Positions 37,325 to 40,441 of a DNA stretch of 64,000 nucleotides are shown piece by piece. The stretch lies in contig CANGYH010000001.1 of assembly GCA_947458545.1 (NCBI GenBank), positions 682,001-746,000 on the forward strand, in the 5' to 3' direction. The notes beneath the pieces were generated by a model that worked only from the letters and a program-made list of their open reading frames with translations, searched no databases and had not been told where the DNA came from. Source of the stretch: Cytophagaceae bacterium (GTDB lineage: Bacteria > Bacteroidota > Bacteroidia > Cytophagales > Flexibacteraceae). The first letter of the stretch is position 1. Each line of letters begins with the position of its first letter. The position numbers were made by a program, and so were the translations under genes.

Positions 37325-37981
37325 CTAACGAATTACCTGCGGCGGCAGGCTAAAAATTGCTTGCTTGCGCAGGGGCAAAGCGGGCAGACGAGCATCCAAA
37401 GGTAGCGGCAGGCTACCAACGTGGGCAAACCGGAGCCACCGGTGCAAAAACGAAATACCCCCTGCCGTGCAGGCTGCCTCTGGGTGATACTGCACCGCCC
37501 AAATGGGTAATGTACTATGGCGCAAGGCCATACAGACGCCATCTGGCCCGTAGGCCTCTGCCACCAGGCAGGGCGGCAAATCTGCCAAGGCCAGGCTGTG
37601 GTAGCGCACCACCTCTTCTGGCCCATCTGGGTAGAGGCGCGATCCTTCTACCGGCACCAGCGGCCGCACCTTACCGTGGATGGGCACAGGGGCCTGCACC
37701 AGTTTGGCTCCAAAGTAGGTGCCCAGCGCCTGCATGCCCAGGCAAATACCCAGCAGCGGTATGCCAGCCGCCACGGCATCGGCCACGTACTGCATCAGAT
37801 GGGGGCTACTTCGCTCGGTGCCCGGCCCGGGCCCAATTACCACACCAGCCCAGCCATTTGCCAGCAGGCCGGGCTGGTAGGGCTCGTAGGTGTCCACAAG
37901 CGTACATGCACCACCCAGGCGGTATAGCCGGTCTGCAAGCAGATGAGAGAAGCTGTCTCTGTTTTCTAAAAAAAGCAGCAC
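37325..37981 (-). CDS. pabA: Glutamine amidotransferase, PabA/TrpG type
   Basis: 218 residues, class I glutamine amidotransferase domain: GPGPGTE, the nucleophile Cys80 in GICLGMQAL, and the His/Glu of VQYHPEAACT. It supplies ammonia for aminodeoxychorismate or anthranilate synthase. Without trp neighbours, and being single, pabA (folate) or a dual role is likelier than trpG alone. The start is GTG at 37981; no in-frame ATG lies upstream. It has ~20 extra residues after the usual family end (LPALPLRKQAIF). Divergent from dnaX. Confidence 0.88.
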   Translation of the reverse strand: MLLFLENRDSFSHLLADRLYRLGGACTLVDTYEPYQPGLLANGWAGVVIGPGPGTERSSPHLMQYVADAVAAGIPLLGICLGMQALGTYFGAKLVQAPVPIHGKVRPLVPVEGSRLYPDGPEEVVRYHSLALADLPPCLVAEAYGPDGVCMALRHSTLPIWAVQYHPEAACTAGGISFLHRWLRFAHVGSLPLPLDARLPALPLRKQAIFSLPPQVIR

Positions 37982-38089
37982 GGCAGGCTGCCGGGCCTTT
38001 AGGGGCCGGCATATACAAAGATGGCCGCCTTGGCAGGCAAGCGCGCAATCTCATGGCCTGCCGCAGCCCGATAGCGGCGGTGCGCCTGG

Positions 38090-38097
38090 TATCTTTG
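38090..38097 (+). promoter_or_regulatory. dnaX promoter -7 element (TATCTTTG)
   Basis: Exact TAnnTTTG match 18 bases before the dnaX ATG; the same octamer precedes miaB. No TTG at -33 spacing. Confidence 0.6.
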
Positions 38098-38115
38098 TGC
38101 TTCCCTCCAGAGCAG

Positions 38116-39861
38116 ATGGCAAGCCAGGCAGCGTCTTCCGCATTTGTCGTGTCGGCACGTAAGTACCGGCCCAGCACCTTTTCTACGGTGGTGGGGCAGA
38201 GCCACATCACCACCACGCTCAAAAACGCCATCAGCAAGGGGCAGCTGGCCCAGGCCTTTCTGTTTTGCGGGCCCCGCGGCGTAGGCAAAACCACCTGCGC
38301 CCGCATCCTGGCCAAAGCCATAAACTGCACGGCCCGCCAGGCCGATGCCGAGCCCTGCAATACCTGCGAAAGCTGCGCCCGCTTCAACTCCGGCTCATCG
38401 CTGGATATCTTTGAGCTCGACGCTGCCTCCAACAACAGCGTAGACGACATCCGCCAGCTTGTAGAGCAGGTGCGCGTACCACCTGTGTATGCCGGAGGCC
38501 GCAAGGTCTATATTATAGACGAGGTGCACATGCTCTCTACGGCCGCCTTCAATGCGTTTCTGAAAACGTTGGAGGAGCCCCCTGCCTACGCCATCTTCAT
38601 CCTGGCCACTACGGAGAAGCATAAAATCTTGCCGACGATCCTGTCTCGGTGCCAGATTTTTGACTTTAGCCGCATCAAGATTGACGATATCGTCTATCAA
38701 CTGCGCACAGTGGCCACCCAAGAAGCCATTCCGGCAGAAGAAGAGGCCCTTCACGTCATAGCCCAGAAGGCCGACGGCGGCATGCGAGACGCCCTCTCGA
38801 TGTTTGACCTCGTCAGCACCTTCTCTGCCGAGCGTGCCCTCACCTATGGCGGGGCCATCGAGCACCTCAACGTCCTCGACTACGACTATTACTTCCGCCT
38901 TACAGACGCCCTTTATGCCGGGCAGATGGATGAGGCCTTGCTCATTTTTGACCAGGTACTGCGCAAGGGGTTCGACGGCCACTTATTCATCTCTGGCTTC
39001 TCAGAGCATCTGCGCAACCTTATCGTCAGCCGGAACGAGAAAACGGTAGAACTGCTAGAAGTACCCGAGAGCGCTCGCAAACGATACCTGCTGCAAGCCA
39101 AAACGGTACCGGCCAGCTTTCAGCTCTCGGCCCTGAACCTGGCCGGCCAGGCCGACGGGCAGTACAAGCAAACACGCAACCAGCGCCTGCTTATAGAGCT
39201 GACGCTGATGAAAATCGCCCACGTGCGATCGGCCATAGACCTGGCCACCTTGCCCCGCAGCACCCAACCTGCCGACCCATCGGCCGGGCAAAAAAAAAAT
39301 GAACCCGGCCTAGAGGCACCCGCCGCTGCATCTACGGCAGCAACAGCCGCCGCACCAACACCTGGCGCACTGCCCAATGCCCTGCCGAGCATGCGCGCCT
39401 TGCTGGCCACCTCTGCCCCAACCCCGGCGCCAGCCACCAAGCCATCCGTTGTGGAGGCCTCCACACCGATGGGGCCCATAGAGCTGGTGAATATGCCATT
39501 AACCACGGAGCTTGTGCGCCAGGCCTGGGAGGCAGAGGCCACACGCCTAGAGGGCAAAGAGATGATGCGCGAGGTAGCCGCCATGCGCAATACACGCGTA
39601 GCCGCCGAGGCAGGCAACCTGGTGCTGACCCTACCCAGCGACCACCACAAGCGCGAGCTGGAGCGGATCATCAACCGCCTGCGGCCCTCGCTGGTCGGGC
39701 TGCTCAACAACAACGCCTTTGCCTTTGACTGGCGTGTAGAGCTACCCGAGGGCCCTACCGAAGCAGCCCTCTACACCGATACCGATAAGCTCAACTACCT
39801 GCTTACCTCCTACCCCGAGCTGCAGCGCTGGCGGCAAGACTTAGGCCTCGATCTGCTATAA
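38116..39861 (+). CDS. dnaX: DNA polymerase III subunit gamma/tau
   Basis: 581 residues; clamp-loader ATPase of the replisome. The AAA+ domain has Walker A GPRGVGKTT, a four-Cys zinc module (CTARQADAEPCNTCESC), DEVHMLS and the arginine-finger region ILSRCQIFDF. Domains I-III end near residue 360. After a low-complexity Ala/Pro segment (~375-450), a C-terminal tau-like domain follows (~455-581). ATG at 38116 is chosen: it fits the family start (SARKYRPSTF) and lies 18 bases after a -7 element, although the frame is open upstream. At codons 392-395 (Gln-Lys-Lys-Asn) a run of ten A residues would end translation after residue 395 on a -1 slip, suggesting a second, gamma-like product. Confidence 0.96.
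   Translation: MASQAASSAFVVSARKYRPSTFSTVVGQSHITTTLKNAISKGQLAQAFLFCGPRGVGKTTCARILAKAINCTARQADAEPCNTCESCARFNSGSSLDIFELDAASNNSVDDIRQLVEQVRVPPVYAGGRKVYIIDEVHMLSTAAFNAFLKTLEEPPAYAIFILATTEKHKILPTILSRCQIFDFSRIKIDDIVYQLRTVATQEAIPAEEEALHVIAQKADGGMRDALSMFDLVSTFSAERALTYGGAIEHLNVLDYDYYFRLTDALYAGQMDEALLIFDQVLRKGFDGHLFISGFSEHLRNLIVSRNEKTVELLEVPESARKRYLLQAKTVPASFQLSALNLAGQADGQYKQTRNQRLLIELTLMKIAHVRSAIDLATLPRSTQPADPSAGQKKNEPGLEAPAAASTAATAAAPTPGALPNALPSMRALLATSAPTPAPATKPSVVEASTPMGPIELVNMPLTTELVRQAWEAEATRLEGKEMMREVAAMRNTRVAAEAGNLVLTLPSDHHKRELERIINRLRPSLVGLLNNNAFAFDWRVELPEGPTEAALYTDTDKLNYLLTSYPELQRWRQDLGLDLL
39282..39310 (+). other. Putative programmed slippage/frameshift site in dnaX
   Basis: GGCCGGG (39282-39288) and CCCGGCC (39304-39310) are perfect complements around a 15-base loop that holds ten A residues (39290-39299) followed by TGAA. 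One added A, or a -1 ribosomal slip, reads AAA TGA and stops at once. One lost A reads ATG AAC CCG GCC TAG and stops five codons on. Known relatives: the A-run transcriptional slippage of Thermus dnaX and the A-AAA-AAG frameshift of E. coli dnaX. Confidence 0.75.
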
Positions 39862-39917
39862 CCCAAACCCCATTGGGCACCCTTACGATCGATTGTAAAC
39901 CCAACCACCTGAAAATC

Positions 39918-39947
39918 AAAAAAGCCAACCTTGCGGTTGGCTTTTTT
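39918..39947. terminator. Bidirectional terminator between dnaX and tRNA-Asn
   Basis: A perfect 13-bp stem, 39918-39930 with 39935-39947, has a TTGC loop, six A on the left and six T on the right. It can end dnaX transcripts rightward and the tRNA transcript leftward, and lies 3 bases from the tRNA 3' end. Confidence 0.9.
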
Positions 39948-39949
39948 AG

Positions 39950-40026
39950 TGGCTCCTCCTCTTGGGCTTGAACCAAGGACCCCCTGATTAACAGTCAGGT
40001 GCTCTAACCAGCTGAGCTAAGGAGGA
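39950..40026 (-). tRNA. tRNA-Asn (anticodon GTT)
   Basis: Full cloverleaf on the minus strand. The acceptor is TCCTCCT with AGGAGGA, the D stem GCTC/GAGC, and the anticodon stem CCTGA/TCAGG with loop CTGTTAA (anticodon GTT). The variable loop is GGGTC, and the T stem CTTGG/CCAAG has loop TTCAAGC. The discriminator is G, and CCA is encoded at 39952-39950. The mature body without CCA is 74 bases (39953-40026). Confidence 0.97.
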
Positions 40027-40043
40027 GTGCGCTTTTGGGACTG

Positions 40044-40073
40044 CAAATATAGGCTACAAGGCCTTTTCTGCAA
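40044..40073 (-). promoter_or_regulatory. tRNA-Asn promoter: TTG-N19-TATATTTG
   Basis: On the minus strand TTG (40073-40071) is followed after 19 bases by TATATTTG (40051-40044), the full two-part Bacteroidota housekeeping promoter. The tRNA 5' end lies 17 bases downstream. It is the only candidate here with both elements at standard spacing. Confidence 0.75.
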
Positions 40074-40090
40074 TGCTGAGGGCTAATTTT

Positions 40091-40441
40091 TTATTTACCA
40101 GCCTTGCCGGCCGTATCTGCCTGAGGTGCAGGGGCGGCAGCTTCTACCGTGGTTTCGGCTGAATTGGCTACAGCAGCCTTGGCCTTCATCTCGCGGTTGT
40201 AGGCAGGGTTGTCTTCGGTAAAGAGCTGCTTCTTGATGGCATCGGCTTTGGCAGCCTGCTCAGGGTCAGCCTCGTATTTGTTAAGAGACTGCTCGGCCGG
40301 GCCATCTACCTCTCCATAGATCTGGGGCTGCTTTTTCATAGACTCCTTATCTTCTGGCGGGGTGGGATAGCTGTAGGTATCGCATCCGGTGGCCGAGAGG
40401 GTAAAAGCCAAGGCGCAGGCAGCAAAAAGCAGACGTGTCAT
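40091..40441 (-). CDS. Small lipoprotein of unknown function
   Basis: 116 residues. The signal peptide ends in lipobox SATGC (Cys20), so the protein is lipid-anchored. The mature part is hydrophilic, rich in Ala, Lys, Glu and Gln, with a Pro-rich start (SYPTPPEDKES) and an Ala/Pro-rich tail; it is probably largely disordered. I do not recognise a family. It lies upstream of the tRNA gene on the same strand, with the tRNA's own promoter between them. Confidence 0.8.
   Translation of the reverse strand: MTRLLFAACALAFTLSATGCDTYSYPTPPEDKESMKKQPQIYGEVDGPAEQSLNKYEADPEQAAKADAIKKQLFTEDNPAYNREMKAKAAVANSAETTVEAAAPAPQADTAGKAGK

Follow-up and report, generated by a model that had tools for sequence, protein, structure and literature searches.

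The dnaX gene of this Cytophagaceae bacterium carries an uninterrupted run of ten A residues just past the clamp-loader part of the protein, where the tau tail begins, and a run of at least nine A lies near the same junction in 225 of the 285 Bacteroidota dnaX loci that we compared. Sequence comparison indicates that this A10 is very likely a recoding site. It is probably a programmed slippage site of the type known from Thermus, at which RNA polymerase would add or drop A residues so that one gene yields both tau and a gamma-like product.

Within the window (the whole stretch of DNA analysed here, 64,000 nucleotides long), dnaX was recognised by NCBIfam and Pfam matches and occupies positions 38116–39861 of the plus strand, a tau frame of 581 codons plus stop when counted from an inferred start codon (ATG at 38116). 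Clamp-loader domains I–III, residues 1–374, are encoded at 38116–39237 (plus strand). The NCBIfam dnaX_nterm model ends at residue 367 and Pfam domain III at residue 374, and the A10 run (39290–39299, plus strand) therefore lies just past the clamp-loader part, with its first base in codon 392 (Q) and its last in codon 395 (N). The reading phase across it is ...GGG CAA AAA AAA AAT GAA CCC GGC CTA G.... One additional A, or a −1 slip of the ribosome, gives CAA AAA AAA AAA TGA, a 395-residue product that ends at the TGA at 39300–39302 (plus strand) with no sense codon after the run. One A fewer gives ATG AAC CCG GCC TAG, four sense codons and then the TAG at 39311–39313 (plus strand), for a product of 398 residues. 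Given where the two clamp-loader models end, products of 395 and 398 residues would retain domains I–III and be without the tau tail, which is encoded at 39300–39861 (plus strand) in the tau frame only, as judged from the reading frame and a tail profile. A preliminary description of this locus had given these positions and codons for the run, a 395-residue product through AAA TGA on gain of an A or a −1 slip, a TAG within five codons on loss of an A, and a place for the run at the end of the clamp-loader part, and it was right in each respect.

The gene thus has the sequence features of the Thermus type: a sense-strand run of at least nine A, near stops in both non-zero frames, and a position after the clamp-loader domains. 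We also note that a tRNA gene on the minus strand (window positions 39953–40026) lies directly downstream of dnaX in convergent orientation; ARAGORN, applied to L324, reads the tRNA neighbouring dnaX as tRNA-Asn (GUU).

Conservation and polarity of the junction run

We examined 286 dnaX loci; removal of L170, an exact duplicate, leaves 285, among which there are still near-duplicates. Eighty loci are from named genome contigs, 11 are from the window's own family (including its own genome), and 195 more come from the order, class and phylum. The 80 named loci were found with six peptide patterns, one of which, AGQKKNEP, may slightly favour A-runs. The search for runs began at residue 335 and covered about 165 codons.

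By group, a run of at least nine A is present in the window's own gene (1/1), in 8 of 10 others of the same family, 93 of 102 from the order, 34 of 38 from the class and 65 of the 80 named loci; it is also present in 24 of 54 from other classes of the phylum, a hand-picked set that is enriched for short frames and gives no prevalence. With one representative taken per cluster of core identity, the run is present in 217/277 at 98% and 175/234 at 90%. Run length is exactly ten in 178 genes, out of 227 with at least eight A at the junction. Of the 225 runs of nine or more, 217 lie before residue 410 and 8 lie deeper in the tail, and elsewhere in the coding sequence of the 227 genes (401,328 bases) there are just ten such runs. 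A10 runs are found starting in each of the three codon phases, so the conserved thing is not a peptide. The preliminary description had taken related genomes with synonymous codons breaking the run as evidence against its reading; the comparison speaks in favour of that reading, as the run is retained in the 225 loci and only 47 of those 225 would stay uninterrupted if codons were redrawn from each gene's own usage.

In the remaining 60 of the 285 loci no run reaches nine A (two of these 60 contigs end at the junction), and the run is thus not indispensable. In the window's family the two such loci are L086, which has no run, and L093, whose contig ends at the junction. L086 (58% GC) has no A-run of even eight at the junction and encodes a single tau frame of about 654 codons.

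The genes with a run fall into two polarities. In 136 tau-first genes (run of at least nine A) the genome frame encodes tau, and a stop is met on average 2.3 codons into the frame entered with one nucleotide more and 5.8 codons into that entered with one fewer, against means of 18.1 (+1 nt) and 16.8 (−1 nt) codons to a stop from other positions in the same tails. In 5000 draws the observed mean distances were never attained, a figure that is descriptive rather than a probability because the genes are related and not independent. In the window dnaX itself, both wrong frames are closed within four codons at 1.6% of 125 tail positions.

In the other 89 genes, which are gamma-first, the genome frame stops just past the run (median 381 codons). 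A tau-tail profile built from the tau-first tails matches a shifted frame in 87 of these 89 (E<1e-3), and in the two misses, L051 and L060, the contigs end 17 and 65 codons past the run. The tail is reached with one nucleotide more in 85 gamma-first genes and with one fewer (or two more) in four, namely L088, L089, L187 and L244. L088 and L089 are from two genomes of one genus and agree with each other; L187 depends on one extra A and may reflect a homopolymer error.

In a gene tree built from the cores with FastTree, at least 30 switches between tau-first and gamma-first are needed among the 225 genes, and 50 shuffles of the labels on this tree gave a mean of 70.5 and a minimum of 62. Some neighbours of opposite polarity are close: L187 (A11) and L121 (A10) share 92% core identity, and L215 (A9) has up to 89% core identity with A10 genes. 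Because the polarity of a single gene depends on the exact homopolymer length, assembly errors may account for L187 and L215. In L031, a Bacteroidales metagenome-assembled genome, dnaX stops at 383 residues and a tail that stays open for 249 codons is present in the +1 frame, with neither an A-run nor the TAG element described below around codon 383; either recoding or a fault of the assembly may explain this.

Slippage by RNA polymerase and its alternatives

In the mechanism that we favour, the RNA:DNA hybrid of RNA polymerase has about the length of the run, and A residues would be added (or dropped) during transcription; PMC5009743 gives the hybrid as 9–10 bp, which fits the run length. Transcripts with 10 or 10+3n A would encode tau (581 residues), and transcripts with any other number of A would run into TGA or TAG at once and encode a gamma-like subunit of about 395–398 residues with no tau tail. 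We infer that both DnaX proteins are made. Most of the slipping is likely by RNA polymerase rather than by the ribosome, since nine or more A are conserved although seven would satisfy a ribosomal heptamer, since both shift directions occur, since downstream structure is no stronger than upstream and A_AAA_AAG is absent at the window locus, and since the ribosomes of Bacteroidia are reported not to recognise Shine-Dalgarno (SD) sequences (PMC9976891) and low efficiency is reported for prfB frameshifting in Flavobacterium johnsoniae (PMC12421855). Polymerase and ribosome may both contribute.

Two kinds of ribosomal stimulator were considered and not adopted. An SD-like motif occurs within 20 nt upstream of the run in 51 of 225 loci, a count that clearly exceeds the 7.6 of windows further upstream but is closer to the 37.2 given by synonymous resampling; the spacing varies, and the window locus (L082) has no such motif within those 20 nt. 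As Bacteroidia ribosomes reportedly ignore SD sequences, the SD stimulator of E. coli is in any case unlikely here. A 3′ structure common to the group was not found either, the folding z-score being −0.48 downstream of the run and −0.47 upstream. At the window locus the fold of 39270–39330 includes a small downstream stem. A search of 37900–40100 against Rfam (E<=5) listed five matches, with no frameshift element among them and only the neighbouring tRNA above its gathering score.

A −1 ribosomal frameshift on A_AAA_AAA within the run would give gamma (or tau in the gamma-first genes), the length of the run merely raising the rate, and we regard this alternative as unlikely. The heptamer fits A10 in any phase, a −1 slip leads to the same 395-residue product, and 85 of the 89 gamma-first genes need a shift in that direction. 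The 30 tRNA hits scanned, of 36, include one tRNA-Lys (UUU) but no tRNA-Lys with a CUU anticodon (the other six are 84–91 nt long), a state that has been tied to ribosomal shifting in E. coli (PMC5009743). Reporters in E. coli with runs of 7, 9 and 11 A, studied for a different gene family, are reported to shift frame at rates of 10, 40 and 63% (PMC3711429). However, the four gamma-first genes of opposite direction need a change that a −1 shift cannot serve, and seven or eight A would be enough for the ribosome, yet nine or more are kept. Nor does the window locus have A_AAA_AAG, as T follows the run and only A_AAA_AAA is available; there is no common 3′ structure, and stimulation through an SD sequence is improbable in Bacteroidia.

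Could the run be neutral, with its near stops coincidental and tau the sole product? Apart from the dnaX A10, neither strand of the 3.23-Mb (3,233,599-base) assembly has a run of at least ten A. Base composition predicts about 0.8 A10 runs, and runs of at least nine A occur at seven places, dnaX included, against a prediction of about 3.8. The genome total is unremarkable, and it is the position of the A10 that stands out. Given the peptide QKKN, the probability of an uninterrupted A10 is 0.013 with the codon usage of 27 window ORFs and 0.073 with that of the dnaX core itself, so codon usage alone leaves some room for chance, as do the loci that have no run. Against this, the run is kept across most of the loci in all codon phases, near stops are in excess, and the 89 gamma-first genes would lose tau if no shift took place. 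We consider a chance origin very improbable.

The run is also enclosed by a perfect inverted repeat, with GGCCGGG at 39282–39288 and CCCGGCC at 39304–39310 (plus strand) separated by a 15-nt loop, C-A10-TGAA, and the preliminary description pointed out that an A-run within a hairpin loop differs from both classic cases. On a further reading, the hairpin would itself be the working part and would promote slipping by keeping the A-run in its loop. The 7-bp stem is all G+C, and for the window gene alone such a stem has P ~0.009 relative to shuffled flanks. Over the 225 loci, however, the best enclosing stem scores a mean of 8.31 compared with 8.11 with shuffled flanks, and the window's score is reached only by the window locus itself and L047; the enclosing hairpin is thus not conserved in relatives, where the preliminary description had proposed to look for it. 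The RNA fold of 39270–39330 is unremarkable (z −1.48, with 14 of 200 shuffles folding as well). Moreover, the hairpin presumably could not exist at the moment of slipping: with polymerase on the run the 3′ arm would still be untranscribed, and with a ribosome on the run the stem would be melted. That the hairpin is the working part is therefore exceedingly doubtful; it is unlikely to matter, and we judge both arms of the inverted repeat to be incidental. The sequence comparison supports part of the earlier proposal, namely a conserved slip site through which one dnaX could yield tau as well as a gamma-like product, and gives no support to a role for the hairpin in it.

An in-frame TAG at the junction in one Bacteroidales family

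Three related Bacteroidales dnaX genes (L024, L061 and L068) have no A-run and have instead an in-frame TAG at the junction, followed by a tau tail in the same frame. The three tails match the tau profile (E from 3e-16 to 5e-26) and differ most at third codon positions. A dnaX match was found in 144 of 149 genomes drawn from the family, 71 of them with exactly one in-frame TAG by row count. We read 92 loci of this family (two named, 30 best matches, and 60 chosen mostly from those already listed with a TAG), and in this chosen set 73 have the TAG at residue 362–388 with 166–259 same-frame codons after it.

All 73 share the element TAGATWGCAAG, in which W is T or A and the base between GC and AG varies (A in 68). 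Downstream of this a stem-loop begins after two further bases, and three bases separate it from a CA; the element at L407:2218-2274 (minus strand) is an example from the family loci L407–L496, L024 and L061. With the loop length that gives the best pairing, the stem has three or more pairs at this spacing in every one of the 64 distinct elements; redealing the 3′ arms left 32.3 such elements on average and 44 at most. The arms are CGC/GCG in 36 and of a related GYY/GRC type in 28, so this contrast in pairing is largely one between two arm types and reflects few independent compensations. The CA shares the frame of the TAG in 36 elements and lies outside it in 28, which argues that it is conserved as RNA and not as peptide. 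A search of three elements against Rfam returned no credible family, the GNAA-loop form of the stem-loop had no match in viral contigs, and in the literature searched no title or abstract opening describes amber readthrough in dnaX or in Bacteroidales.

The simplest reading is apparently that a leaky amber codon is read through with the aid of the stem-loop, in place of the A-run. Reinitiation that produces a separate tail may also account for these genes, as may a suppressor tRNA, although none was seen in the 30 loci scanned out of 115 tRNA hits (some loci having several tRNAs). Reassignment of TAG was judged unlikely: in 14 of the 73 genes TAG terminates tau itself and is thus a working stop, and TAG is also the stop of 14 among 40 neighbouring ORFs that were called mechanically and have at least 200 codons. 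Counter to this last point, frames stay open for at least 60 codons beyond the stop in 5 of the 14 TAG-ending neighbours, compared with 3 of 12 for TAA and 0 of 14 for TGA.

The other 19 of the 92 loci are diverse. Four (L491, L492, L494 and L496) have A9 or A10, ten encode an uninterrupted tau with no run, L469 has the TAG element on a contig that ends, and L489 is unexplained. Three others of the same family, L473, L485 and L490, retain the stem-loop, but their genome frame is closed by a TAG that lies two bases upstream of the stem. Their tau tail is in the +1 frame and follows GTTAGGC or GTCAGGC, a sequence reminiscent of the CUUAGGC site of yeast Ty1. A class-wide search with a TAG dnaX query matched 381 of 395 genomes, and G625 (419 residues, one TAG), outside the family, is among the matches listed.

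Significance and relation to known dnaX systems

On balance, we lean towards the view that the gamma/tau boundary of Bacteroidota is a dedicated recoding site whose mechanism and polarity are interchangeable, in most cases through polymerase slippage on A10 (in either direction) and in one Bacteroidales family through an amber codon and stem-loop with readthrough to tau. If this is true, the latter would be stop-codon readthrough in a bacterial housekeeping gene. A slip site kept at one joint in most dnaX genes of the phylum, with some 30 swaps of polarity on the gene tree, together with the apparently leaky stop of one family, argues that selection protects having both forms. The role of gamma, long disputed in E. 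coli (PMC5009743), would become testable in cultured Cytophagales and Flavobacteria, and the natural A9, A10 and A11 variants in both polarities would be material for measuring slippage by RNA polymerase.

The idea of slippage on A10 in dnaX is not new. In PMC3711429, Antonov et al. (2013) proposed transcriptional slippage for nine two-ORF dnaX genes with ten A, so some two-ORF A10 genes are already covered there, and among the open papers searched it is the only one that brings dnaX, slippage and Bacteroidetes together. No title or abstract opening in the same open literature concerns the conservation of A10 in Bacteroidota dnaX, which is no proof of absence. As described there, those genes are like the window gene in having A10 in dnaX and a proposed transcriptional slippage. 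They differ in being gamma-first, the −1 frameshift being present in the DNA itself, whereas the window dnaX is tau-first. The present set has both polarities on one conserved run and contains four genes that shift in the opposite direction. Genes with reversed roles are also mentioned in PMC5009743.

In E. coli, gamma is made by an established −1 ribosomal frameshift on A_AAA_AAG with an SD sequence and a stem-loop (PMC5009743, PMC3711429). The outcome is alike, a gamma form ending just past the slip site. Unlike the E. coli gene as given in these sources, the window locus has neither A_AAA_AAG nor an SD-like motif within 20 nt upstream, and no 3′ stem-loop stands out as conserved among its relatives.

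The closest parallel is the dnaX of Thermus thermophilus, a tau-first gene with A9 for which transcriptional slippage is established (PMC1088944, PMC5009743). The Thermus run has nine A and the window's ten, and the former lies seven-eighths of the way through its gene according to PMC1088944, compared with two thirds here (codon 392 of 581). In other respects reported for Thermus the two are alike: a sense-strand run of at least nine A, tau in the genome frame, near stops in both other frames, and gamma from slipped transcripts, the last of which we infer for the window gene from its sequence.
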